Shown: positions 775 through 39,190 of the stretch, piece by piece | Layout of the letters: each line of letters opens with the position of its first letter | How positions within the stretch are numbered: the first letter of the stretch is position 1 | From: a virus | DNA: 64,000 nucleotides | Reading direction: 5' to 3' (one strand) | IMG/VR virus record: IMGVR_UViG_3300006947_000003 | Span: 1 to 64,000 of that record | The notes under the pieces: model-generated | What the model was told of the DNA's origin: nothing | What the model saw: only the letters and a program-made list of their open reading frames with translations | Databases searched by the model: none | Made by a program: the position numbers and the translations under genes

Positions 775-1993
775 CTAGTAACTCCGATGCCCACGGATAC
801 ATATCTCTATATTTGACTGGATTGTTAAAGTCCCAAAGGTTAACATTATTGTGTAACTCTATACGTTCGCGTTCGTTTATTTCTCTAACGTTTTGTTTTA
901 ATCGTTGGGAAATCGTAAAGTAATCAAAGTCTAAATCTAAATCTAAATCTAATGATCTAAGGTCCATGCTGTCTAATTCATCAATTAGTTCAGTTCTATA
1001 TTGTAATGGTATTAATTCCCATTGAAGATAAGATGGCGTTCTTACTTCGTTATAACTTACATTATTAGTAACGGTTTCTTCTTTAACCCATTTAAGAAAG
1101 TCAGCCAGCCCTAACATATTCAATTGACTCCAACAAGGAGTTATGCTAGTTTCCATATTATGTTCTCTTAGTTTTCTATAGTTTCTTTTTAATGTATTCC
1201 ATTTAACTGGAAACCGCTGATACTCTATCCATTTGTCAGGCCCATCGATGCTACAGCCTACTTCGCATCGATCAAACTTTTTAAGTATTTCTAATACACT
1301 AGTTTTTACTGTAGTACAATTTGTTAAGAAATATATGTATAAGTTAGTTCTTCCAGCATCTATTAAGTTTAACATTAGTTCTTCTATTTCGGGCATGAGA
1401 AACGATTCGCCACCAGCAAATTTTATTTCTCTTATACTATCATTGGCCATTATAAATTCAAACAATCCGTTAATTGGATCTATATTGCCTAAGTCTTTGT
1501 AAAAGTCTGCTTGTTGACCATCCCAGTATTCTTTCGACTGTTGTGTTTGCCCTATTGCTCCTGCCTTAGTTGCCGCTATTATATTTTTTGCTATTTGATC
1601 ACTATTACCGGAGTAACACATTTTACATTGTAAGTTACATTTATTTGTAAGTCGAACATCTATTATTTCTAATACAGGAGGGTCTTCCGGGAGTACATGT
1701 CGATATTGATTTACATATTTTTTATTTTCGTGGAGTCTTGAACTAACTAGATTGTTATCTTCTTCTGCCCAGCAATTAGAACAATTAGCCGGCCTTTTAT
1801 CTTCTAAGAATTCTTTTCGTATACGAACTAACTCACTATCATTTTGGAACCAGTTATCTGACTTATTAAACAACTCACCTTTGTGACTTTGTTTTTGTAT
1901 ACAGCAAGACCTATACCCTGGTTTTGTGTCTCCGGAGGTGTGTTCAAAATAAAGTTCTCTAAATGGCACATAGCAAAAGTTCTTTCGTTCCAT
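767..1993 (-). CDS. Radical SAM protein, N-terminal twitch type
   Basis: 408 aa. The N-terminal module contains C7, C30/C31, C71 and C74, matching the SPASM/twitch pattern (FC..PF, CC, later CxxC followed by W-x-E-E-D). The radical SAM core has C119-x3-C123-x2-C126 and a GGE motif (FAGGES). These enzymes cleave SAM reductively to a 5'-deoxyadenosyl radical; the substrate here is unknown. The start ATG overlaps the stop of the QueC-like gene by one base and the end overlaps the next radical SAM gene by 8 bases, so it is translated within the same unit. Near residue 350 a tandem hexamer (TCTAAA units at 930-953) encodes a Leu-Asp repeat. Confidence 0.9.
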   Translation of the reverse strand: MERKNFCYVPFRELYFEHTSGDTKPGYRSCCIQKQSHKGELFNKSDNWFQNDSELVRIRKEFLEDKRPANCSNCWAEEDNNLVSSRLHENKKYVNQYRHVLPEDPPVLEIIDVRLTNKCNLQCKMCYSGNSDQIAKNIIAATKAGAIGQTQQSKEYWDGQQADFYKDLGNIDPINGLFEFIMANDSIREIKFAGGESFLMPEIEELMLNLIDAGRTNLYIYFLTNCTTVKTSVLEILKKFDRCEVGCSIDGPDKWIEYQRFPVKWNTLKRNYRKLREHNMETSITPCWSQLNMLGLADFLKWVKEETVTNNVSYNEVRTPSYLQWELIPLQYRTELIDELDSMDLRSLDLDLDLDFDYFTISQRLKQNVREINERERIELHNNVNLWDFNNPVKYRDMYPWASELLGE

Positions 1994-2739
1994 TAATCAA
2001 AACCCCAATGGCGTTCGTGACACCACCAACATTCTGTGTGGCAATGCGTAGTAAAATTGTTTGTTAGTACTGAGTCAAAATTTTCACAGCTTCTAGTGAT
2101 TAACATCAGTGTTTGGCGTAAGTCAAACATATCGTATAGTTCTGCTACGCCTTTTTTATCAATATTAGTTAACAATGATATACTAGTCATATTCCCCTTT
2201 TTAACCCCGTTGTCTTTTGTTTTTCCGATTTGCCAATAGCCGTCAGTATTCCAAAAGTAAGGATGTTCAATACTAATCGGATCAGTACCGGGGCGGTCTG
2301 CTTCAGGTCCTTCTAGTAATTCCGTTTTTGAATTATAAAATTGTAAGTAAACTGACGGTGGTGGGTTTTTATTTATACCAGTAAAGTATATATCAAACGG
2401 TATACGCTGATGAGTCTCATATAAATGTATGTCTTGTTCTTGTTCATATACTCCGTTGTCTGGAGATTGTTTAACAGCATGTGGTAATATATTTACTCTA
2501 GGAAAGTGAGTTTTCATCCAGAATATAACTCTAGTAGAAAACTCTCCATGGTACGGCTTTGCCCAGTCGTTAAGTGTTATAGGAAGTATAGCTGTTTTGA
2601 GTTTGTTAAGTGTTATATGATTACATAGCATATAGAAAACTATAGCACTATCTAATCCCCCCGACAGTTTAATTCCGACTGTAGAATGAGTATCATCAAA
2701 ATCAATTAAAATATCAGATTGGGAAGTAGAAATAAACAT
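1993..2739 (-). CDS. QueC-like PP-loop ATPase (adenine nucleotide alpha hydrolase fold)
   Basis: 248 aa. Near the N-terminus is the PP-loop SGGLDSA, which binds ATP and adenylates a carboxyl or carbonyl group. The C-terminus has four cysteines ending in CWWCHERHWGF, very like the zinc site of QueC (7-cyano-7-deazaguanine synthase), whose C-terminus also carries CxxC-x2-R-x2-GF. QueC makes preQ0, used for tRNA queuosine and for 7-deazaguanine in some phage DNAs. No QueD, QueE or FolE homologue lies in the window, so the true substrate may differ. It sits between iscU and a radical SAM gene; a gap of 32 bases separates it from iscU. PP-loop call is strong, preQ0 role is only possible. Confidence 0.75.
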   Translation of the reverse strand: MFISTSQSDILIDFDDTHSTVGIKLSGGLDSAIVFYMLCNHITLNKLKTAILPITLNDWAKPYHGEFSTRVIFWMKTHFPRVNILPHAVKQSPDNGVYEQEQDIHLYETHQRIPFDIYFTGINKNPPPSVYLQFYNSKTELLEGPEADRPGTDPISIEHPYFWNTDGYWQIGKTKDNGVKKGNMTSISLLTNIDKKGVAELYDMFDLRQTLMLITRSCENFDSVLTNNFTTHCHTECWWCHERHWGFD

Positions 2740-2771: not shown

Positions 2772-3164
2772 TTACCTAGTGGTTGTTTCTGGGTTCTTAC
2801 CTTGGTAATCTTTAATAGCTGATTTGATTGCGTCTTCGGCTAATACACTACAATGAATCTTAACAGGTGGCAGAGCAAGTGACTCAACAATATCCATGTT
2901 CTTAATATCTGTTGCTTCTTGTATTGTCATACCCTTGACCCAAGTAGTTAACAAGCTACTGGACGCTATGGCACTACCACAGCCATACGTTTTAAATTTA
3001 GCATCTTCAATGATACCGTCTTTAACTTTAATTTGAAGCTTCATCACGTCGCCACAAGCAGGAGCACCTACCATGCCAGTTCCGATAGACTTATCTGTCA
3101 TATCAAATTTACCTACGTTCCTTGGGTTGTTATAATGATCTAAAACTTGTTCTGAATATGCCAT
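2772..3164 (-). CDS. iscU: IscU iron-sulfur cluster scaffold
   Basis: 130 aa, the usual IscU length. IscU assembles 2Fe-2S and 4Fe-4S clusters using sulfur from the cysteine desulfurase IscS and hands them on with the HscA/HscB chaperones. All three ligand cysteines are present: C37 (GAPACGD, with D39), C62 (YGCGSAIASSS) and C105 (KIHCS). The HscA-docking motif LPPVK is intact at 98-102. No IscS, HscA, HscB or IscA is visible, so it should work with host partners. It follows the acyl-carrier-like gene and precedes the QueC-like and radical SAM genes, which suggests it supports clusters for the 13 radical SAM enzymes in the window. Confidence 0.95.
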   Translation of the reverse strand: MAYSEQVLDHYNNPRNVGKFDMTDKSIGTGMVGAPACGDVMKLQIKVKDGIIEDAKFKTYGCGSAIASSSLLTTWVKGMTIQEATDIKNMDIVESLALPPVKIHCSVLAEDAIKSAIKDYQGKNPETTTR

Positions 3165-3181: not shown

Positions 3182-3421
3182 TTAACTACCGTAACTATTA
3201 CGGTTGCGTTCTATTGTATCAAAGATATCTTGTACTGTGTTGATTGCTCTAGCTTCGGTATCACTAATAGTACAATCCCACTTATCTTCTACTTCAATTA
3301 TTAATTCAATAATAGTAAAATCATCTGAGCCCAAGTCGTCTATTAGATGTGACTCTGGTTTAATTAACGCTTCGTCTACATCTAGTTTATGACTCAAGTA
3401 ACTTATTAACTTATCTATCAT
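3182..3421 (-). CDS. Acyl-carrier-protein-like protein lacking the attachment serine
   Basis: 79 aa with the four-helix ACP pattern, an acidic helix II and the standard LIDDLG...ELIIEVEDKW region. In ordinary ACPs the phosphopantetheine is attached to Ser in a DSL motif; here the aligned residues are D33-D34-F35, so serine is replaced by Asp34. A nearby S32 is two residues off position. It therefore probably cannot carry an acyl chain in the usual way. First gene after an exact sigma-70 promoter, with a GGGAG ribosome binding site, and followed 17 bases later by iscU. ACP is known to bind the cysteine desulfurase in mitochondria and to co-purify with E. coli IscS, so a role beside IscU is a reasonable guess. 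Confidence 0.8.
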   Translation of the reverse strand: MIDKLISYLSHKLDVDEALIKPESHLIDDLGSDDFTIIELIIEVEDKWDCTISDTEARAINTVQDIFDTIERNRNSYGS

Positions 3422-3438: not shown

Positions 3439-3467
3439 ATTATACTATATTTATTGGCAATTGTCAA
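3439..3467 (-). promoter_or_regulatory. Exact consensus sigma-70 promoter for the ACP-iscU-queC-like-radical SAM unit
   Basis: On the minus strand TTGACA (3467-3462), a 17-bp spacer and TATAAT (3444-3439). It lies in the 46-bp gap upstream of the ACP-like gene, and its -35 box directly abuts the stop codon of the preceding radical SAM gene. The predicted start is near 3432, followed by a GGGAG ribosome binding site. A perfect match in both hexamers and spacing points to host RNA polymerase and early transcription. Confidence 0.9.
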
Positions 3468-4880
3468 CTATGCTGGTCCGTTTACAACTCCGTCAATATC
3501 AAAGTTTAACACTTCTGATTGGAAATCGTTTTTACATCTATCATAGTACCTAGTTAAATGTGGTTCGATAGCCAGTGTATCAGTTCCGCGCACTTCGTCT
3601 AATGCCATTTGATGTCTAACAAACTGTAGCATTAATCGTTTCTTCTTGCCTTCTGTTATACCTTGAGTAGTGTGGCCGCTGATCTCTCTGTTTAATTCAG
3701 AGCGAATAGTACGGAACCATTGTATTTCTTTCTTATTCATCTTGAACTCTACGATACATTCATCAAGCAATTTGTGTATTAATTCTTTATGATCATCATC
3801 TAACCAACAGATTGATAAGAATAACGGATCCACAATAGGTAAAAATGATATACCTCTATGCTTTGGAAAGTATCGTCTATATCCTTCTAGGAACCATTTC
3901 ATTGTATCTTTTATTTGGAATATACCTTGGGGTTGTACAACCGAACCGATACCTGCCCAATGCAGATTTGGAAGTTTAAAAACTTCGTGGAAGATTTGTT
4001 CATGTCTATCCCATTTAGTTCCGTGACGTAAATATTCTTCTAACTCACCAGTTCCGTCAAAGCTAAAGTTAATTGTAACGTGTTTGAATTGACTAATAAC
4101 TTTTTCAATACGTTTGTTCCAACTTGTAGCATTTGTAATTAAGTGTAAGAAGATATTTTTAGCATGTCCAGAGTCTACTACTTTTTGTAATACTTTATGT
4201 ACACGTGGATCAATAAGTGTCTCACCACCTGACATCTTTAACCACTTAACATCTGTTAAGTCAATATTTGATACTGGGTCAAATTTAGGATCATCATAAT
4301 CAATTTGCTCTGCCCATTTACGAACAGTTGCTGACTTAGTTACTGAATCCCAATATGTCCAGCCTTGTAAAACCTTGTTGTCTAACACTTCCTTTTCAAT
4401 CTCAGAAGACCAAGTACTATTGCATGAGCGACATTTTAAGTTACATAGTTTACTAGGACGTAAGTCAATATCAATCGGCTTGCCCCATTTGTTACCTTTT
4501 ACAACATCAAGACCTAGGTGTTCGTAGTTCTTGTGGCTTGTTTCTTCGTGGTCAGCGTACTTGCTGATGAAGTGCATTCTGTTTGATTCTTCCCAAACTT
4601 TCTCACGTTCATATCTACCACAGTACCAGTCACACGCCTTAGGCATTTTGCCATCTAAGAATTCTTGTCTAATGCCTTGCATGGTATCACCTACCCAGAA
4701 CTCGTCTAGTTGTTCTCCTAGATCCTGATCCATGTCGTGCCAGCGTCCTACGATTTTGCTCATACAACATAGCTTGTGTGCCCTGTTATTTGCATTCATG
4801 TAAGCGTGAAAGAACGGGGCCGGACAGAACTTCTCATTTGGAAGTTCTTTCATTAATTGTTTTGCTTCTTTATCGTCCAT
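3468..4880 (-). CDS. Radical SAM protein, N-terminal twitch type
   Basis: 470 aa. The N-terminal module has C19, C38/C39, C83 and C87; the second pair is spaced CxxxC (CDWYC), not CxxC as in the paralogues. The radical SAM core carries C146-x3-C150-x2-C153 and a GGE motif (MSGGETL). A conserved FSFDGTGELEEYLRHG segment in the core is shared with the neighbours. It is the last gene of the 18-gene metK unit: its stop is followed directly by the promoter of the next unit. Its start overlaps the PLP-enzyme stop by one base. Substrate unknown. Confidence 0.9.
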   Translation of the reverse strand: MDDKEAKQLMKELPNEKFCPAPFFHAYMNANNRAHKLCCMSKIVGRWHDMDQDLGEQLDEFWVGDTMQGIRQEFLDGKMPKACDWYCGRYEREKVWEESNRMHFISKYADHEETSHKNYEHLGLDVVKGNKWGKPIDIDLRPSKLCNLKCRSCNSTWSSEIEKEVLDNKVLQGWTYWDSVTKSATVRKWAEQIDYDDPKFDPVSNIDLTDVKWLKMSGGETLIDPRVHKVLQKVVDSGHAKNIFLHLITNATSWNKRIEKVISQFKHVTINFSFDGTGELEEYLRHGTKWDRHEQIFHEVFKLPNLHWAGIGSVVQPQGIFQIKDTMKWFLEGYRRYFPKHRGISFLPIVDPLFLSICWLDDDHKELIHKLLDECIVEFKMNKKEIQWFRTIRSELNREISGHTTQGITEGKKKRLMLQFVRHQMALDEVRGTDTLAIEPHLTRYYDRCKNDFQSEVLNFDIDGVVNGPA

Positions 4881-5845
4881 TATAGTTTTAACTCTCCTCG
4901 CCTAACGGCTTTAAGTGCCTCCCGTATGCCCACTTTAACATAGCTTTCATCTATTAAAAAATATTCAAAGTCTTTGTGGTATCTCGGTAGCATTGTAACA
5001 TGTAAGCAGTTTGTCTCTTGCATACTGTATTTAGCACATAATTGTTTGTACCAGTCCAAATACTTATTAGCCTGCCAATCGGGGCTAAAGTTATCCATTT
5101 GATGTAATGCTAGTTGACAGTTACTTAGAACTAGGTGTCCGTAGCTGTTTTGTTGTGCTATTGGCATCATATCGTTTTTTGGATAGTTGCTCCAGCGTAC
5201 ACCAGTTCGCATATTACCTAACCCTATCCCCTTGCTCAGGCTAAAACTAACTTCAGTAATCGCTGGGTGGTTAAGGTCAAATTCCATATCGAAGCAAGTT
5301 CCAAACCAAGCACAGTCTAGTATTACAGGTACATCTAGTGCTAAACATCTATCTAATAGCTCTTTCATTTTAGGGTGTTCACTGCCTGTGCCGCAGAATG
5401 GATGTGATAATACTACCCAGTCTCCGGGCTCAATTGGATCAGCCCATTCACCGTTTGCTTGTTTACCGGTGTGTTCATCTAGCCATGCATGGTTCTTATA
5501 TACACGTCTGTGATAAGCATATTCGCCTCTAAACAAGCGTAAACGTCTACCAGCATACCTGAAGTAAGCCTCATCAAAACTTTGTGTAGTTCCAATAATG
5601 ATGTCCCTTCTTAAATATCGTTTGCTGTGAAACTTACAGCCGTCTGTTATCTTGTTTTGTTTAGATGAATATATCCAATCAATAAATCGTTCAATGTATT
5701 GATCTTGTACTTCAAAGTACCCGGGCTCACTTAGCCATTGTTCCCATGGTGCTTCTTTTAAACTTTTTTGGAAAGCTGGATCGTATATAGCATTGTGTCT
5801 GTTCCTAAAAACTTTGCCTAGTAGTTCATCAAATTCTAATGTCAT
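4880..5845 (-). CDS. PLP-dependent aminotransferase-like enzyme (fold type I)
   Basis: 321 aa. The C-terminal half shows the fold-type-I signature: D177 in VILDCAWFG (the aspartate that pairs with the PLP ring nitrogen), K205 in SFSLSKGIGLG (Schiff-base lysine), then R213 in NMRTGVRW. The protein is shorter than the usual 380-400 aa aminotransferase and the N-terminal domain is not recognisable by eye. It could transfer an amino group to a keto-sugar or keto acid; a cysteine desulfurase is less likely because no catalytic-loop cysteine motif is evident. It lies between two radical SAM genes and overlaps the upstream one by 17 bases, so it may act on the same substrate. Confidence 0.75.
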   Translation of the reverse strand: MTLEFDELLGKVFRNRHNAIYDPAFQKSLKEAPWEQWLSEPGYFEVQDQYIERFIDWIYSSKQNKITDGCKFHSKRYLRRDIIIGTTQSFDEAYFRYAGRRLRLFRGEYAYHRRVYKNHAWLDEHTGKQANGEWADPIEPGDWVVLSHPFCGTGSEHPKMKELLDRCLALDVPVILDCAWFGTCFDMEFDLNHPAITEVSFSLSKGIGLGNMRTGVRWSNYPKNDMMPIAQQNSYGHLVLSNCQLALHQMDNFSPDWQANKYLDWYKQLCAKYSMQETNCLHVTMLPRYHKDFEYFLIDESYVKVGIREALKAVRRGELKL

Positions 5846-12083: not shown

Positions 12084-13582
12084 TATTCTTCGTCCAGTAG
12101 TCTAGCCATATCAGGAAAGGTAGTCCTGAAGTCTGTTCCTCGTTGGGCATCCATTAAGTTAATGTATTCTCTAAACTCTGGCATACGTTGTGACCAGTCT
12201 TCTGATTCCATAAATGTTAACATACCTTCTAGTCGTTCTATACCGTAACTAGCAGTACGCCAAGTTTCGTAATCAACTTTTCCTTTATGCCACTCGGGAA
12301 TTCCCTTTTCCCAGTTAGCTTCCCACCATGGATAAAATTCTTCGTACTTCTTACGACATGCTTCTTTAAACCATTTAGGTAATACTTTAACATTTAAGTG
12401 TGGCGGATGATAAACAAAGTGATAGTTAATACCACCAGCACCAAATGGCCACATGTTAATTTTACTAAAGCCTTGCTCTAGTTTCCATTTAATAAAGTCA
12501 GGCAAGTAATAAATGTTAAGAGCCTGTACAGCACACGCTACAGTAATTTCTGTATTGTCGCCTGTTTCTTGATCCCATATTTTAAATACTTCTTCGTTTC
12601 GTTCCCATTCGCTTGGGAAACGTATGTAATCATTCCATTCTTTAATCGAGTCAACACTATAATGAAAACGTACTAATTTGAAGTGTTTCCATAACTCTAA
12701 GAGGTCCGGACGCCACTCAACACCGTTGCTGTTATAACGTATTTCCATCTTACTAGCATAGCCTTGGCGTATAACTTCTTCGAGTATTTCGTAGTGTTCT
12801 TCGATGATTAAACTCTCACCGCCAGCAAAGTAAATCTGTTTCATGTTTGGAACTTGCTGATAAAACTGTTCCCAAAACTTAGGATTCTTTTTATGCCAGT
12901 TGTAACTAGCACCAAAGTTTTTACCCTTGTTATCCCACACCATTGTTTGCTTTAGGTTTTCATTTTTTACTTTAGGATAAACTTCTGTCCAATCTTTAAC
13001 CCAGTCACTTGAATCATGTGGGCTACACATTACACATCTTAAATTACACTTAGTACCAAAGCGTAAATCTATGTATGCTAACTGTGGAGGCACTTCTCCG
13101 TCCTCTGAGGTTTCTTCAATTAGCTGATCTAGATCTACACGCTGTCTCCAGTAATGTGTTTCCCATTCTCGTTTTGATTTATGACCTGCGGCTTCTTCTT
13201 TATAACACTTTACACAGCTAGGTGGTTTCTCACCAGCTAACATTTGTGTTCTAACATTCTTCATGTATGAACCGTTCCAGCTAGAAAGGAAATCACTTAC
13301 ATTTAAGTTATTGGGTTTACCGTCTTCGTCTTTCAGTATACCTACTTGACCCCCATGCTTACCTCGGTCGTTAGTAGCACCAACACTTGAAGCATTTGCT
13401 GTACAGCAAACTCTCATAGCACCGTCAGGTCTAGTACTTAAATGGACCCAAGGAAGAATACAAAATGTATCACTTGGTAGTTTGTCTTTATTCTCATCTA
13501 CGTTTATTGCTTTAGACTGCTGTGACGGGATTATGTCTAATGTGATCTCTGGTTGTATTCTTAATTCTTGTTCTTCGCTCAT
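12083..13582 (-). CDS. Radical SAM protein, N-terminal twitch type
   Basis: 499 aa. A 38-residue leader precedes the N-terminal module C41, C59/C60, C123, C126 (CVKCYKEEAAG). Core: C179-x3-C183-x2-C186 and GGE (FAGGESL). It is the closest relative of 7417-8748. The Asp-Ser-Ile-Lys segment where most paralogues have S-x-DG suggests a slightly different active site. The start overlaps the nfu stop by one base. Directly downstream of nfu, a good position for receiving clusters. Substrate unknown. Confidence 0.92.
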   Translation of the reverse strand: MSEEQELRIQPEITLDIIPSQQSKAINVDENKDKLPSDTFCILPWVHLSTRPDGAMRVCCTANASSVGATNDRGKHGGQVGILKDEDGKPNNLNVSDFLSSWNGSYMKNVRTQMLAGEKPPSCVKCYKEEAAGHKSKREWETHYWRQRVDLDQLIEETSEDGEVPPQLAYIDLRFGTKCNLRCVMCSPHDSSDWVKDWTEVYPKVKNENLKQTMVWDNKGKNFGASYNWHKKNPKFWEQFYQQVPNMKQIYFAGGESLIIEEHYEILEEVIRQGYASKMEIRYNSNGVEWRPDLLELWKHFKLVRFHYSVDSIKEWNDYIRFPSEWERNEEVFKIWDQETGDNTEITVACAVQALNIYYLPDFIKWKLEQGFSKINMWPFGAGGINYHFVYHPPHLNVKVLPKWFKEACRKKYEEFYPWWEANWEKGIPEWHKGKVDYETWRTASYGIERLEGMLTFMESEDWSQRMPEFREYINLMDAQRGTDFRTTFPDMARLLDEE

Positions 13583-13896
13583 TACATTCTATCCATCGGG
13601 TCATAATCGTCCATTGGCATTGTATGATAAGGATCATTAAAGTTTGGATCGTCTTCTCCTACAACTTCGGTTACTTCGGGTATATAATGTTTTAGCATGT
13701 TTTCAATACCCATTTTTAACGTTATCATACTGCTTGAACATCCAGAACAAGACCCACTTAATAACGTTTTAAGAATGCCAGTTTCCATATCAAAGTCTAA
13801 TACTTTGACCTCGCCGCCGTGTTGGGCAACGTTTGGCTGTATCTTCTCGTCCATTATTTTGTTTATTTCTGTTAGTATTTCTTCTTTTGTTTTCAT
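13582..13896 (-). CDS. Nfu-type iron-sulfur cluster carrier (NifU C-terminal domain)
   Basis: 104 aa from the ATG at 13896, which overlaps the upstream stop as ATGA; an ATG at 13908 would add four residues. The NFU domain is clear: IQPNVAQHGGEV near the N-terminus and the cluster-binding CSGC motif (C50 and C53 from this start). Nfu proteins bind a 4Fe-4S cluster between two monomers and deliver it to target enzymes. The C-terminal 25 residues form an acidic, Met- and Pro-rich tail not typical of the domain. It lies between two radical SAM genes; together with iscU it makes an assembly-plus-delivery pair. Confidence 0.93.
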   Translation of the reverse strand: MKTKEEILTEINKIMDEKIQPNVAQHGGEVKVLDFDMETGILKTLLSGSCSGCSSSMITLKMGIENMLKHYIPEVTEVVGEDDPNFNDPYHTMPMDDYDPMDRM

Positions 13897-14903
13897 TTGT
13901 ATATCCACGGTAAAGTTAATTTTGAATCTGTGCCCCTATGTTTATCGAGTGCTGTGAGCCAGTCTATTAAGTTGTCTTGTGGCTGCCCTACAGCGAGAAT
14001 TGATGGTTCAGTAAGTGTATTAACATCTACGTCAGTTAATCCTTTTTCTGTACACCAATCTAATATTGTGTCAATATGTTCTTCATTTAGTTGCGATTTT
14101 GTTACATTTACAGCAGTATGTATGTGCTTTTGCTGTAGTAATGTATTTAGATTATTCTCGAATGTCTCCCAATCTAACGGAAACCTAATATACTCGCCAA
14201 CTTCGTTAATACCATCCACACTAATAGTTATCACTATTTTTTTGAAGTGTTCTAGCAACTGGAGTATAGTATTATCTAGCATTGTTAAGTTAGTAGTAAT
14301 TTGTAAATCGATATGTTTACTATGCCCATTGTTAATTAATCCCTGTAATAAATGTTTTACAGATGGCATATAAAATGGTTCGCCACCTGCTAATTGCAAT
14401 CGTTTGATTGATTTAGAATGATATAATATTTCATCAATTTGTTTAGTACTGAACTTAACAGTCTTCTCATACGGCTCTATGGCTAAATGGATATCTTCGA
14501 TCCATTTACTACTAACACGTGGGTTACACATGACGCATTTTAAGTTACACACGTTACCAGGGCGTAAGTCATAGTACTGGGGCAAGGATGACATGTACCC
14601 GTCACCACGTACTACGTAATCCCATTTGTCGAATTGTTTGTTTACTTTTATACGTTTACTATCGCGACCACAATCTTCATCAGCCCAGCACGTACTACAC
14701 GCATTTGGTCTTTGACTATATAACATTTGCCTTCTTATTTTTTTTAAGTAATACGAATTGAAACTTGTAACATCTTTATACTCTGGCCCTAACTCTGTTC
14801 GGTCTCCAATGCAACAGGGCAGTAGTTTATTATCAGTATCAACAAATTGTTGAATGAATGGCAGTATGCAAAAACTATTGGAACTGTGCTTTGAATGGAT
14901 CAT
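13893..14903 (-). CDS. Radical SAM protein, N-terminal twitch type (short form)
   Basis: 336 aa. I start it at ATG 14903 because a strong GGGGAGGA ribosome binding site sits just before it and the overlap with the upstream gene is smaller than from ATG 14927. From this start the N-terminal module is C12, C30/C31, C69 and C72, and the core has C119-x3-C123-x2-C126 with GGE (LAGGEPF). It lacks the long C-terminal extension of the paralogues, ending soon after the core barrel. It overlaps nfu by 4 bases. Substrate unknown. Confidence 0.9.
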   Translation of the reverse strand: MIHSKHSSNSFCILPFIQQFVDTDNKLLPCCIGDRTELGPEYKDVTSFNSYYLKKIRRQMLYSQRPNACSTCWADEDCGRDSKRIKVNKQFDKWDYVVRGDGYMSSLPQYYDLRPGNVCNLKCVMCNPRVSSKWIEDIHLAIEPYEKTVKFSTKQIDEILYHSKSIKRLQLAGGEPFYMPSVKHLLQGLINNGHSKHIDLQITTNLTMLDNTILQLLEHFKKIVITISVDGINEVGEYIRFPLDWETFENNLNTLLQQKHIHTAVNVTKSQLNEEHIDTILDWCTEKGLTDVDVNTLTEPSILAVGQPQDNLIDWLTALDKHRGTDSKLTLPWIYK

Positions 14904-19478: not shown

Positions 19479-19742
19479 TTAGCCTTCTTCTTCCATCATC
19501 TTTTCCCAAGCGATAGTCATACTGTTAAACATTAAATCATAATGAAACTTTGCTCTATCTTCTTCATTTAAGTCACCATCATAGTCGGCTTGTAGTTCAT
19601 CAGCAAGAACTTCTGCAAAGTGTTCTATGTCTGCTTCATCTTCTATTGTTTCTATATGATGTCCATAATAGTTTTCTACTGTTTCGTAGTCTGACTCTAG
19701 TGCAATTGCAAAATGTTTTATTAGTGTATCTTCTTCTACCAT
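19479..19742 (-). CDS. Small acidic unknown protein
   Basis: 87 aa, rich in Glu and Asp. I start it at ATG 19742, which overlaps the metK stop as ATGGTAG; in-frame ATGs at 19757 and 19793 would place more of it inside metK. It looks fully helical (TLIKHFAIALESDYETVENYYG, then an acidic helix). No family recognised. The tight coupling to metK suggests co-translation. Confidence 0.65.
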   Translation of the reverse strand: MVEEDTLIKHFAIALESDYETVENYYGHHIETIEDEADIEHFAEVLADELQADYDGDLNEEDRAKFHYDLMFNSMTIAWEKMMEEEG

Positions 19743-20827
19743 CCAATCTTCTCCCATGGTACATCTTTGTCGCCAAAGTGTCCGTATACACAATTCTCAC
19801 TATATCCATAAAAGTTAAATAAATCAAACCTATCAATAATACCTTTTGGTGTAAGGTCAATATTTTCTCTAATATACTTTTGAATACTTTTATTATGTCC
19901 GTTGCTGTCAATGTAAATGCTTGTTGGTTCTTTTACACCGATAGCATATGATAGTTGTATTTGGCACCAGTCAGCCATATCGTCTGCTACAACATTCTTT
20001 GCTAACCAACGTGCCATATATGTAGCACTACGATCTACTTTCGTAGGGTCCTTTCCAGAAAAAGCACCACCACCATGAGGAGCGAAACCACCATAGGTGT
20101 CCACGATAATTTTTCGTCCTGTAACTCCGGTGTCTCCATCAGGTCCGCCAATAACAAAATTGCCAGTAGGATTAATATGCCATGTAGTGTTTTCATCAAT
20201 TAAATCTCCCAGTACTTCACGTGCCGCATCCTTGATGGGCATTCTTATACTATCACCGAACCCTTTTTTGTGCTGATGAGATACTACAATTTGGTCAACA
20301 CGCTTTGGTACTCCGCCGCTGTATTCTATGCTTACTTGACTTTTAGCATCTGGTAGCATATAGTCGTAACCTGACTTACGCTTCTCATTGAGATTTTTTA
20401 ATATCTCGTGACTGTAATAAATCGGAGCAGGTAAGAAAGACCCGTTATCGAGACAGGCATAACCAAACATAAGACCTTGATCGCCGGCACCAAACTCATC
20501 TGTGCCTAATCCAATGTCGCCACTTTGGCTATGTATAAGATTATTAATTTTTAGATTTTCGTAATGGAACCCGTCTTGTTTGTATCCAATCTCTTTAACT
20601 TTGTCACGAATAAGTTGTTCTATTTCGTCGGGTGTTACATTAAAGTTTTTTACTTCGCCTGCAATTGTAACATGATTAGTAGTTACAAGTGTTTCAACCG
20701 CAACACGAGTAGTTTCGTCTCCTGCTTTTAGACCAGCATCTACTAACGTATCACTGATTTGATCTGCTACTTTATCTGGATGACCAGCACTTACTGACTC
20801 ACTTGTAAAAGTGTAATTATTTTCCAT
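19736..20827 (-). CDS. metK: S-adenosylmethionine synthetase
   Basis: 363 aa, slightly short of the bacterial 380-390. It makes SAM from ATP and methionine. Signature segments are intact: SESVSAGHPDKVADQISD (ATP and Mg binding), GAGDQGLMFGYA, and GGGAFSGKDPTKVDRSA. It heads an 18-gene unit holding eight radical SAM genes and a methyltransferase, so it probably raises the SAM supply for them. A perfect sigma-70 promoter (20926-20954) and a roughly 92-base leader with hairpins lie upstream; the ribosome binding site is AGGAG at 20836-20840. Confidence 0.97.
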   Translation of the reverse strand: MENNYTFTSESVSAGHPDKVADQISDTLVDAGLKAGDETTRVAVETLVTTNHVTIAGEVKNFNVTPDEIEQLIRDKVKEIGYKQDGFHYENLKINNLIHSQSGDIGLGTDEFGAGDQGLMFGYACLDNGSFLPAPIYYSHEILKNLNEKRKSGYDYMLPDAKSQVSIEYSGGVPKRVDQIVVSHQHKKGFGDSIRMPIKDAAREVLGDLIDENTTWHINPTGNFVIGGPDGDTGVTGRKIIVDTYGGFAPHGGGAFSGKDPTKVDRSATYMARWLAKNVVADDMADWCQIQLSYAIGVKEPTSIYIDSNGHNKSIQKYIRENIDLTPKGIIDRFDLFNFYGYSENCVYGHFGDKDVPWEKIGW

Positions 20828-20925: not shown

Positions 20926-20954
20926 ATTATAACAAATATTAGAGAGTTTGTCAA
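20926..20954 (-). promoter_or_regulatory. Exact consensus sigma-70 promoter for the metK unit
   Basis: Minus strand TTGACA (20954-20949), 17-bp spacer, TATAAT (20931-20926). The -35 box overlaps the stop codon of the carbamoyltransferase gene. It should drive metK and the 17 genes after it. Confidence 0.92.
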
Positions 20955-22465
20955 GAGCAAACTCTAACTTTATATTCTGTTTCAAACCTATCAGCATCTT
21001 CGCGGGTGTCAACCATTGGCTCGCCCCTGATATTGAGGCTTGTATTAAGTAGCATAGGACAACCGGTTAGTGTAAACCACTTTTCTAATAGTTGTCTCAC
21101 ACCACTTTCGCTGTTTTCTGGAACAGTTTGTACCCTACTAGTACCGTCTACGTGTACAATAGCAGGAAATTCTTCTGGCTTTTTACAGTTAGCAACGACT
21201 TGCATGTATGGTGATGTTGGTAAGTTTTTTGGCATTTCAAAATATTGATCTACAAATTCTTCCATAATTATTGGAGCAAATGGTCTAAATTTTTGCCTAC
21301 GTTTAATATCATTTACTTGATCTTTAATGTCTTCACCCCGAGGGTCTGCTAATAAACTTCTATTACCTAATGCTCTAGGTCCAAACTCTGCTCTGCCACT
21401 TGCTACACCTACTATTTTATTTGTGCTCAATTCGTTTAGTAAGTCGTCGACTGGATAGTCACCTTCAATGTTTGTACCTAAGTAAGGATGAGACCAGCGT
21501 ACATGTTTGCCGTATACTTTTGCCGCGGCACCTAAACTACTACCACAGTCTCCTGGGTTGGGCATTATCCAAACATTATCCCACCACTTGCCTAAGTTTC
21601 TATTATATAAACAGTTAAGGGCAACACCACCCTGATATACCAGGTTATTACTTTTGCCTAACTTTTTAGCACGAGCCATTACTTCGTCAATTAATTTTTC
21701 AACAACTGCTTGGGTACTTGCGGCAATATCCATTTCGTCTATATCTTTTAAGAATTCTTCGTCAACACCGGTGTGTAAGTTCTGTGTAAATTTTACATCA
21801 CCTATATCTTTAATAAGACTATTTTTAATAGTGTGTTCAACATCTGTGGCATTTTTGCCATGGCCTGCCATTCCCATCAAAATATATTCTTCGTCTTGTG
21901 GGCGTAGCCCGAGTCGTCCTGTCATTGCTGAATAATATAATCCTATAGAGTGAGGGTACTTTTGACTCCATAATTTTTTATAATCTACTTCACCATACCT
22001 TCCCATCATAGGAAATTTATTATATGTTGCTGACCAAATAGAAATAGTATCCCATTCTCCGATAGCATCTATTACTACAACTGTAGCATCCTGGAAGGGA
22101 GATGTTTGAAACCCAGAAGCAACATGTGACATATGATGATTGAGTGTGTGAACCTTTTTAGGTAACATATCATAATATGATCCAAAGTGCTTTTTTAAAG
22201 TTTGTTTAATTGTCCATGTTGACCCTTTTTTATATCCCTGTCCGGCATATATTTCTCTTGTCTTTTTCTTCCATGGTGTTTCGTAATATGCTACACAATC
22301 AAATGGACCATGCTTAAATGCTTCTTCGATTATTTCTGGACATAAATTTTTATCGTGTTTCTTTTTACTAAAGCGTTCACTGTGTCCAGCAAATAAAATT
22401 TTATCGTTGTGTAATACAGTTAGGCCAGCATCGTGAAATCCTGCACTCACACCTAGTATCTTCAT
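20951..22465 (-). CDS. Carbamoyltransferase (NodU/CmcH/TobZ family)
   Basis: 504 aa. The N-terminal Kae1-like domain opens ILGVSAGFHDAG and holds the metal-binding H110/H111/H114 (LNHHMSHVASGF) and the following Asp (VVIDAIGEWD). The C-terminal YrdC-like part has GVASGRAEFGPRALGNRS and NTSLNIRGEP. Enzymes of this family transfer a carbamoyl group from carbamoyl phosphate, through carbamoyl-AMP, onto a hydroxyl of a sugar or antibiotic. The end after NTSLNIRGEPMVDTREDA is short, so the C-terminus may be slightly truncated relative to the family. It overlaps the upstream radical SAM gene as ATGA and may add a carbamoyl group to the island's product. Confidence 0.9.
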   Translation of the reverse strand: MKILGVSAGFHDAGLTVLHNDKILFAGHSERFSKKKHDKNLCPEIIEEAFKHGPFDCVAYYETPWKKKTREIYAGQGYKKGSTWTIKQTLKKHFGSYYDMLPKKVHTLNHHMSHVASGFQTSPFQDATVVVIDAIGEWDTISIWSATYNKFPMMGRYGEVDYKKLWSQKYPHSIGLYYSAMTGRLGLRPQDEEYILMGMAGHGKNATDVEHTIKNSLIKDIGDVKFTQNLHTGVDEEFLKDIDEMDIAASTQAVVEKLIDEVMARAKKLGKSNNLVYQGGVALNCLYNRNLGKWWDNVWIMPNPGDCGSSLGAAAKVYGKHVRWSHPYLGTNIEGDYPVDDLLNELSTNKIVGVASGRAEFGPRALGNRSLLADPRGEDIKDQVNDIKRRQKFRPFAPIIMEEFVDQYFEMPKNLPTSPYMQVVANCKKPEEFPAIVHVDGTSRVQTVPENSESGVRQLLEKWFTLTGCPMLLNTSLNIRGEPMVDTREDADRFETEYKVRVCS

Positions 22466-25662: not shown

Positions 25663-26217
25663 TTATGATCCTAAATATTCTACTGCCTTGATGACAGGGA
25701 CACCTGCTTGTAGTACCCTGGCCTCTCCGCCTACCTCAGGCAAGTTAACCACACAACCAAATGCTAATACATTAGCTCGCCATTCACGTTGTATGATATT
25801 AATAACAGCTAACGCAGTACCGCCTGTTGCTAGTAAGTCGTCTATTATAATAACATTCTCTCCGTCGTGGATAGAATCAGATTGTATTTCCAATGTTGCT
25901 GAACCGTATTCTAATTTAAATTCTTGTCCGTGTACAGCACCTGGAAGTTTGCCCTTTTTTCTAGCTAGTACTAATGGCACATTAAATCTATGTGCTAATA
26001 CACCGCCGAATATAAATCCCCTAGCATCAACGGCCACAATACGATCAACCTTATGTTTGTATTTTAGCATACGATCATACATAAAGTTTTGTGCTAATCT
26101 CAAACCAGGCCCATTACATAAACTAGAAGTATCTTTAAAGTCTACTCCCTTGACTGGCCAATCAGGATATGTTTTAATATAATCCTTAATTAGTTTTCTG
26201 TTTTTGCCATCAGCCAT
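25663..26217 (-). CDS. apt: Adenine phosphoribosyltransferase
   Basis: 184 aa, normal length. Converts adenine plus PRPP into AMP. The PRPP-binding loop VIIIDDLLATGGTA is intact, and AVDARGFIFGGVLA and ARKKGKLPG are the usual substrate loops. It overlaps the RuBisCO-like gene by 8 bases. Adenine is released when 5'-deoxyadenosine, the by-product of radical SAM reactions, is broken down by nucleosidases, so a salvage role next to so many radical SAM genes is sensible. Confidence 0.95.
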   Translation of the reverse strand: MADGKNRKLIKDYIKTYPDWPVKGVDFKDTSSLCNGPGLRLAQNFMYDRMLKYKHKVDRIVAVDARGFIFGGVLAHRFNVPLVLARKKGKLPGAVHGQEFKLEYGSATLEIQSDSIHDGENVIIIDDLLATGGTALAVINIIQREWRANVLAFGCVVNLPEVGGEARVLQAGVPVIKAVEYLGS

Positions 26218-27337
26218 TGTCGATAGCTTTCCTTAGTTCCTCTACACCTGCCCTAATACCTTTAGGGTGTGTGTGGATTGCGCCGCCTACATTTGCCATC
26301 CAGTCGTTGCCGAATTTTTCTCTAATAACAGGAATTAAATCCTTTGTCATGCCGCAACTAAATGCCGGAGTAAGATTTTGTTCTAAACAAACATTTTGAA
26401 TATTTTTAAGTTCTTCATACCCCATGTCCATATAGCCGCCGTACATACCAGCGTGAATTGTATCACATCCTATGAGGCCTGCTAACTTACACATAACTGC
26501 CCATTCAATTCTGTAGGCATTGTACTTGCTTGTAAGAACTTTATCGCCACTCTTTTGAAAGTGTATGAATGTTCCATTGTCTTCGTCTCTAATAGCCTTG
26601 TAAGCACCCATGCCACTCCAGAAGTTAATATGTACTCCCATACCTCCCCATCCACTAACAGTTCTTGCTTTGTCCATTAATGTGTGCGGATCTGAATTAA
26701 TACAATAACAATAAACAGTTTTAGATCCATCAATGATAGGCTGTACTATGCCGATCCTTTCTTCAAGGGTTAAACAAGCAGGGTTGCTCATAATCTCATC
26801 TTCTTTAATAAAATCAGTGCCGCCATCTACCATTTGTTGTACAATATCTTTTAATGTAGCAGGAGAAAGTCCTGTTTTTGGTTTAACAATAGTACCTAAT
26901 AACGGTTTATCATATTGTTGAACGTGATCTCTAAAGCCAGTGAGACCGTATGCTGGCGCTGATAAATCTGCTTTGACTCTATCAATATTAATATCAGTCC
27001 AATGACATTGCTGTATAATGTCAATGTCCATTTGCCCTCCCATCACAGTACACATTAGTTGAGCTATGCCATCTGCATACCAATCAATGTTTCTATAAGG
27101 CCAGGCAATTTCGACTACACCTGCTTGAACAACTGCTAAGTCATCTGGGTCAGCTATAATCTTAGCACTATGATTTTCCATCATTTCCGTTGTTTCATAT
27201 TTACTTCGCACAGACGGGTTACCGATACTTTGTCCTATTGCTAATCCTTCGGCCGCTTCTTTTAGTGTTGTTTTACTTTGTAAAAAGAAGTGACAGCTAA
27301 AGTGATCTTCGGGTTTATTTGCTCTATATATTTCCAT
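26210..27337 (-). CDS. RuBisCO-like protein (form IV-type, not a carboxylase)
   Basis: 375 aa, about 100 shorter than form I large subunit but with the full fold. By eye against spinach numbering: the active-site lysine K175 and K177 are kept (K152 and K154 in KPKTGLSP), as is the metal site carbamylated Lys, Asp, Glu (K178, D180 and E181 in DFIKEDE) and the H327 equivalent (H295). However, R295 (R to F), H294 (H to N), loop-6 K334 (K to Y) and one Gly of the 379-381 motif are changed. That combination fits a RuBisCO-like enolase or isomerase acting on sugar phosphates, as in methionine salvage. The start coincides with the predicted transcription start (leaderless). Followed by apt. Confidence 0.88.
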   Translation of the reverse strand: MEIYRANKPEDHFSCHFFLQSKTTLKEAAEGLAIGQSIGNPSVRSKYETTEMMENHSAKIIADPDDLAVVQAGVVEIAWPYRNIDWYADGIAQLMCTVMGGQMDIDIIQQCHWTDINIDRVKADLSAPAYGLTGFRDHVQQYDKPLLGTIVKPKTGLSPATLKDIVQQMVDGGTDFIKEDEIMSNPACLTLEERIGIVQPIIDGSKTVYCYCINSDPHTLMDKARTVSGWGGMGVHINFWSGMGAYKAIRDEDNGTFIHFQKSGDKVLTSKYNAYRIEWAVMCKLAGLIGCDTIHAGMYGGYMDMGYEELKNIQNVCLEQNLTPAFSCGMTKDLIPVIREKFGNDWMANVGGAIHTHPKGIRAGVEELRKAIDNG

Positions 27338-27343
27338 AATGTT

Positions 27344-27372
27344 ATTATACCTTCTTTAGTTCTGAATGTCAA
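27344..27372 (-). promoter_or_regulatory. Exact consensus sigma-70 promoter for the RuBisCO-like/apt/radical SAM unit
   Basis: Minus strand TTGACA (27372-27367), 17-bp spacer, TATAAT (27349-27344). It is embedded in the last codons of the cupin gene. The expected start site, 6-7 bases beyond TATAAT, falls at the A of the RuBisCO-like gene's ATG (27337), so that message would be leaderless. Confidence 0.9.
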
Positions 27373-39161: not shown

Positions 39162-39190
39162 ATTATAACACGTTAGGACTAAGGTGTCAA
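39162..39190 (-). promoter_or_regulatory. Exact consensus sigma-70 promoter embedded in the terminator region
   Basis: Minus strand TTGACA (39190-39185), 17-bp spacer, TATAAT (39167-39162). The predicted start near 39155 is inside the first arm of the terminator stem, so messages begun here lack the full stem and read on into the 19-gene unit from 38758. Confidence 0.9.

Follow-up and report, generated by a model that had tools for sequence, protein, structure and literature searches.

A marine-phage clade of acyl carrier protein homologues largely lacking the phosphopantetheine serine, with a possible host-docking "pseudo-ACP" encoded beside iscU

Introduction

Phage acyl carrier proteins (ACPs), the iscU genes of marine phages, and the serine-less ACPs of Apicomplexa and Vitrella are already known. 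The ACP of Plasmodium that lacks the serine for 4′-phosphopantetheine (Ppant) works through the LYR adaptor Isd11 and stabilizes Nfs1 (eLife 2021, PMC8547962). The chromerid Vitrella, a relative of the Apicomplexa, is the sole organism beyond that group for which serine-less ACPs have been reported (PMC8547962). Isd11 is absent from bacteria (PMC13343975). In Escherichia coli the contact between ACP and IscS depends on Ser36, Asp35 and Asp38 of ACP, the substitutions S36T and D38N abolish it, and the stimulation of IscS requires acyl-ACP (PMC13343975). Viral iscU is a known auxiliary gene of marine phages, and a marine T4-like genome has been described that carries 12 radical-SAM genes together with an A-type carrier gene (mSphere 2017, PMC5332604).

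Here we describe an ACP-like gene adjacent to iscU in a phage sequence of 64,000 nucleotides (hereafter the window; positions 1 to 64,000 of IMG/VR record IMGVR_UViG_3300006947_000003). The source record is 122 kb long and contains T4-type structural genes. A literature search covering open papers yielded no example of a serine-less phage ACP.

Results

The ACP-like gene and its predicted fold

The gene (3182..3421, complementary strand) begins with ATG and encodes a 79-aa protein. Its product is recognized by the Pfam profile PF00550 (PP-binding) with an E value of 5.4e-5, better than the family cut-off, and by phrog_5934, annotated as "acyl carrier protein" (E = 1e-10). The AlphaFold2 model (pLDDT 88) is a four-helix bundle with helices at residues 2-12, 33-46, 53-57 and 62-75, in which the Asp34 region opens helix II, and the PDB structures nearest to this model are solved ACPs (TM 0.8-0.9, rmsd about 1 Å). 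Profile and model together place the protein in the PF00550 fold family, and the ACP-like identity given in the first-pass annotation was thus borne out. A single ACP protein used as a query against viral contigs returned nothing; alignment queries were used for finding relatives. Since the protein has relatives at 46-61% identity and dN/dS values are well under 1, the reading frame is neither a chance nor a degenerating one.

The attachment site

Alignment with E. coli AcpP (GADSLDTVE versus GSDDFTIIE) places Asp34, encoded by GAT (3320..3322, complementary strand), at the position of Ser36. The replacement of the DSL serine within GSDDF, noted previously, was confirmed by this alignment and by the codon, and the window protein consequently lacks the serine of a functional acyl carrier. 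In the same alignment Asp35 and Glu41 of AcpP are kept as Asp33 and Glu39, and Asp38 is replaced by Thr36. Asp35 and Glu41 of ACP are known partner contacts, and their equivalents are retained in 38/38 serine-less sequences.

Ser32 of GSDDF was considered as an alternative attachment site and rejected because most relatives have Ala there; no other serine is invariant across the 41-member clade described below. No gene for a phosphopantetheinyl transferase (PPTase, PF01648) was found in the studied record (G000) or in three records of related phages.

A phage clade with a variable attachment position

Viral contigs were screened with the pattern L[IV]DDL[GD][AS]D, which leaves the attachment position free. 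This residue-blind scan gave 103 distinct ACPs, including the AcpP proteins of E. coli and B. subtilis, with Ser (65), Asp (17), Glu (10), Pro (7), Val (3) or Ile (1) at the attachment position. The composition differs in a marine-phage ACP clade of 41 distinct sequences: Asp 16, Glu 10, Pro 7, Ser 4, Val 3 and Ile 1. Thus, 37 of its members, the window protein among them, have a residue other than Ser, and the clade (SH-aLRT 89) takes in all but one of the 38 non-Ser sequences. In an earlier tree of 77 rows the corresponding clade comprised 19 rows with support of 97/92; when the motif was masked in this tree, three state changes were needed for the site. For that 77-sequence set, a single Asp group remained compatible with the data in the AU test (p = 0.25). 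How often the serine was lost is uncertain, because the deep branches of the 70-column tree are weak. On the sequences compared, serine loss is a property of the whole family and not of the window protein alone.

Conservation of the Asp in phage homologues, proposed earlier as a check, did not hold, as Asp occupies the site in a minority of the clade (16/41). The presence of DSL in relatives had been named in the first-pass annotation as grounds for refuting its reading. More distant phage ACPs do read DSL, but within the clade the serine occurs solely as DSF, in four of 41 members, whose Ser codon (TCA) differs by a single step from the Pro codon (CCA) in their nearest kin.

Three ideas were considered and set aside. 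In a first, alignment-based scan the close relatives recovered had DD[FW] without exception, and a wider scan added the four DSF relatives; a conserved phospho-mimicking Asp as a general rule was dropped once the residue-blind scan gave Glu, Pro, Val and Ile. Dual Ser/Asp switching through three-base changes was rejected, as the nested Ser (TCA) lies one step from the Pro (CCA) kin. Finally, a cellular origin of the serine-less form was rejected after 84,980 species genomes, scanned twice, yielded a single match, on a phage-like contig, with the order endolysin-spanin-ACP(Pro)-nuclease, inside a Pelagibacter MAG.

Selection on the serine-less proteins

Residues Leu25, Asp27, Asp28, Leu29, Asp32 and Glu38 (numbered without Met1) are invariant in 38/38 serine-less sequences, and the residue at +1 from the attachment site is aromatic (Phe or Trp) in all but one of them. 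The entropy of the attachment site in the same 38 sequences is 1.9 bits. The codons found at the site are one step apart, in the series GAY-GAR, GAC-GTC-ATC and CCA-TCA. Between serine-less members dN/dS is mostly about 0.02-0.3 (the Asp groups mostly fall at 0.15-0.3 and the Pro/Ser group at 0.01-0.17); higher values come from a few very close pairs and are unreliable. With invariant flanks, a variable site and low dN/dS, selection thus maintains the protein but not its attachment site.

Because the site varies amid unchanging neighbours in a gene subject to purifying selection, the function of the clade proteins very probably does not need Ppant. The earlier view that the protein is not an acyl carrier gains support from the Asp, Glu, Pro, Val or Ile found in 37/41 members, from the invariant neighbours and from the lack of a PF01648 PPTase in the tested records. 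Charge at the attachment site may still matter in some lineages, because Asp and Glu dominate among the replacements (26/37). The four Ser members of the clade could be modified by the host.

Genomic location across phages

Most of the serine-less loci (28/41) adjoin genes for Rz-like spanins, usually together with an endolysin (GH108 or M15) or class-3 lipase gene. A further 10/41 adjoin a gene for a T4 gp15-like tail-sheath stabilizer, most of these also a virion structural gene. The remaining three comprise two loci within radical-SAM clusters, those of the window and of phage L085, and one, L244, to which none of these contexts applies. Ser-type ACPs were found at the same two late sites (L112, L097, L123, L176, L249 and L251; L245 and L254), as expected if the role at these loci is independent of Ppant.

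In marine T4-like phages with a class-3 lipase in the lysis cassette (L099:2107-2841, L091:8986-9720 and kin) the gene order is lipase, small TM protein, serine-less ACP, i-spanin and o-spanin. This lipase could be an extra envelope-lysis enzyme.

A 204-kb phage (L106) is related to the studied one, with neighbouring structural proteins 72-92% identical. Its serine-less ACP gene (L106:8001-8213) lies between a virion structural gene and gp15, whereas in the studied genome (L083/L084) these two structural genes are adjacent, with no ACP gene. The difference in location between these two phages indicates that the gene moves and yet is retained.

Local neighbourhood and promoter

A perfect sigma70-type promoter (TTGACA-17-TATAAT; 3439..3467, complementary strand) ends 17 nt before the ATG of the ACP-like gene. 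Its presence favours the earlier proposal that this is the first gene of a unit with iscU and a queC-like gene. Read-through from the radical-SAM gene located directly upstream (3468..4880, complementary strand) is also possible, since it is on the same strand and only 46 nt away. Downstream of the ACP-like gene the order is iscU (2772..3164, complementary strand; NifU_N domain, PF01592, E = 6.7e-52), a gene encoding a QueC-like/PP-loop protein (1993..2739, complementary strand) and a radical-SAM gene. The iscU gene is absent from the records of most relatives. The queC-like assignment is weak in the window itself, where the product gives a weak Asn_synthase match, but a related gene of L085 passes the Pfam QueC profile (PF06508).

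The sister phage L085 encodes an ACP 55% identical to the window protein behind the same radical-SAM gene (88% identical orthologue), without iscU and with no such promoter upstream. Next to the radical-SAM gene of the window is a gene for a PLP-aminotransferase-like protein (4880..5845, complementary strand), which has no Pfam match, was assigned to its family by reading the sequence and is syntenic in L085. The L085 orthologue of the ACP-like gene (L085:11417-11746) may have a 36-aa N-terminal extension, in which case its ATG overlaps the stop codon of the radical-SAM gene (TAAATG).

Perfect TTGACA-17-TATAAT promoters occur four times in the window, against 0.06 expected (3439-3467, 20926-20954, 27344-27372 and 39162-39190, all on the complementary strand). 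They head the ACP-iscU, metK, RuBisCO-like and one further unit, and can be read as a putative host-polymerase transcription class in this phage.

The region 767-24967 (complementary strand) holds a long run of radical-SAM (twitch/SPASM-like) genes and represents a large putative biosynthetic cluster, partly syntenic in L085. It also includes the PLP-aminotransferase-like gene, a Nfu-like gene (13582-13908) and a NodU/CmcH carbamoyltransferase gene (20951-22465). Directly behind one of the perfect promoters there is a gene (26210-27337, complementary strand) for a RuBisCO large-subunit family protein (PF00016, E = 1.9e-31), whose nearest solved structures are archaeal form III RuBisCO and DK-MTP-1P enolase RLPs; no match to this protein was found in 50,697 phage records. 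It adjoins a phosphoribosyltransferase gene (25663-26217), and metK (19736-20827) is nearby. These three genes are possibly involved in the salvage of 5′-deoxyadenosine or methylthioadenosine from the many radical-SAM reactions.

Discussion

A Ppant-independent pseudo-ACP

We propose, with a probability of about 0.5, that the gene encodes a Ppant-free "pseudo-ACP" that would dock on host proteins that normally bind ACP. Across the clade the attachment position itself drifts, while Asp is maintained at -1, an aromatic residue at +1 and Glu at +5; a role that needs ACP recognition without the prosthetic arm best explains the frozen docking residues, the drifting site, the lack of a PF01648 PPTase in the tested records and the loci shared with Ser-type ACPs. 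The pseudo-ACP would preserve the ACP fold as well as the acidic face around helix II, the surface recognized by host enzymes and regulators, would not be charged with an acyl group and would act by protein-protein contact. Its most likely targets would be host ACP binders, i.e. lipid or LPS acyltransferases, AcpS, SpoT and the like, and by docking it would act as a decoy or a modulator in infected cells. The gene studied here was probably relocated to its place beside iscU and would there be driven by a host-type promoter.

The position of the gene beside iscU admits another reading, put forward in the first-pass annotation, in which the protein is a structural Fe-S assembly partner. It would then bind IscU of the phage, IscS of the host or both, and so serve the 13 radical-SAM enzymes of this phage. 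The two genes do adjoin behind one promoter, the phage has 13 radical-SAM matches and a Nfu-like gene, E. coli ACP binds IscS (PMC13343975) and the serine-less ACP of Plasmodium acts on Nfs1 via Isd11 (PMC8547962). In records L146 (9389-9769) and L242, iscU is likewise found within 3 kb of the pseudo-ACP gene, in L146 on the opposite strand. However, a pseudo-ACP serving IscU should travel together with it, and the two genes do not: iscU was found in 3/39 ACP-bearing records (G000, L146 and L242), although many of the records are fragments, so that no conserved association with isc genes is seen. It is absent from ACP-bearing records of 204, 196, 99 and 95 kb and from the sister phage L085, and no ACP gene was present in the stored flanks of 80 viral iscU loci. 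Asp33 is the one residue kept from the E. coli IscS-binding set, Ser36 and Asp38 both being changed (to Asp34 and Thr36), and no IscS-family (Aminotran_5) gene was found in the phage record. As for an Isd11-type contact, the window protein has E39 (+5) and E45 (+11), with Gly or Gln at +11 in many relatives; a search for LYR adaptors gave no signal in any control genome. The phage clearly needs an Fe-S supply (13 radical-SAM matches, Nfu-like gene, metK), and its iscU makes sense by itself. The Fe-S partner reading was thus not supported and we consider it quite improbable. We propose that the adjacency is incidental or reflects local co-expression, though a local link between iscU and the ACP may exist in this phage.

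The recurrent location beside lysis or tail genes could point instead to a virion or lysis role, with the protein being a cytoplasmic factor that tunes lipase, holin or spanin, or a minor tail component. The 28 loci next to spanin, endolysin or lipase genes and the 10 next to gp15 and virion structural genes speak for it, but the two late sites differ in function, Ser-type ACPs occupy them as well, and the copies in the window and L085 are in metabolic radical-SAM clusters with no recognizable copy of those lysis genes in the searched sequence. ACPs are cytosolic adaptors and, to our knowledge, have no lysis or virion role; we regard such a role as unlikely. It is far more doubtful that the protein is still a carrier, either through another residue modified by the host or through a group placed on the Asp/Glu carboxylate by a partner enzyme, for instance the neighbouring radical-SAM or PLP protein. 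Asp and Glu are indeed the commonest replacements, and radical-SAM and aminotransferase-like neighbours are common to the window and L085; against this, the site can also hold Pro, Val or Ile, most members lack those neighbours, and neither Ser32 nor any other serine is suitably conserved. Hardly credible at all is the idea that an ordinary ACP homologue lost its serine and has since drifted with no function. The free variation of the active-site position would fit such drift, but it is contradicted by dN/dS, which points to strong purifying selection elsewhere in the protein, serine-less branches included, and by the retention of the gene across diverged phages and positions.

Significance

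Extending the pseudo-ACP reading, we suggest tentatively, and at somewhat less than even odds, that marine phages have evolved prosthetic-group-free ACP mimics commandeering host ACP-binding enzymes or regulators. If so, they would constitute a class of host-takeover proteins acting on lipid metabolism without carrying, in which the attachment site has been freed from selection. A drifting Ppant position beside a frozen docking face would represent a case in which the two tasks of ACP, carriage and recognition, have been separated naturally. The natural variants (D, E, P, V, I and S) offer a ready set with which to ask which host processes need ACP contact alone. The clade also suggests an unrecognized phage route to host lipid metabolism or ACP-sensing regulators, and a phage gene annotated as an "acyl carrier protein" does not necessarily encode a metabolic carrier.

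Comparison with known systems

The phage proteins resemble bacterial AcpP of type II fatty acid synthesis (PF00550) in size, four-helix fold, DDLG-x-D motif, the equivalents of Asp35 and Glu41, and acidic composition. They differ from it by the missing Ppant serine in 37/41 clade members, including the window protein. The ACP genes of described phages (phrog_5934 and phrog_4154, e.g. that of Prochlorococcus phage P-HM2) belong to the same broad family, but the copies of P-HM2 and other named phages that were examined keep DSL or DSF. The main text on the marine T4-like genome (PMC5332604) does not mention an ACP, unlike the case of the present phage.

The nearest parallel is provided by the mitochondrial ACP (mACP) of Plasmodium and other Apicomplexa (eLife 2021, PMC8547962), which likewise has an ACP fold lacking the Ppant serine, Glu at +5 and a function in protein contact. 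At the attachment site mACP has Phe, Cys or Gly (PMC8547962), as against Asp, Glu, Pro, Val or Ile in the phage clade. The window protein retains the Glu at +11 of mACP, but many members of the phage clade have Gly or Gln there. Moreover, mACP is eukaryotic and its partner is Isd11, a LYR adaptor missing in bacteria, and whereas mACP is connected with Fe-S assembly, the phage clade is tied to lysis and tail loci.
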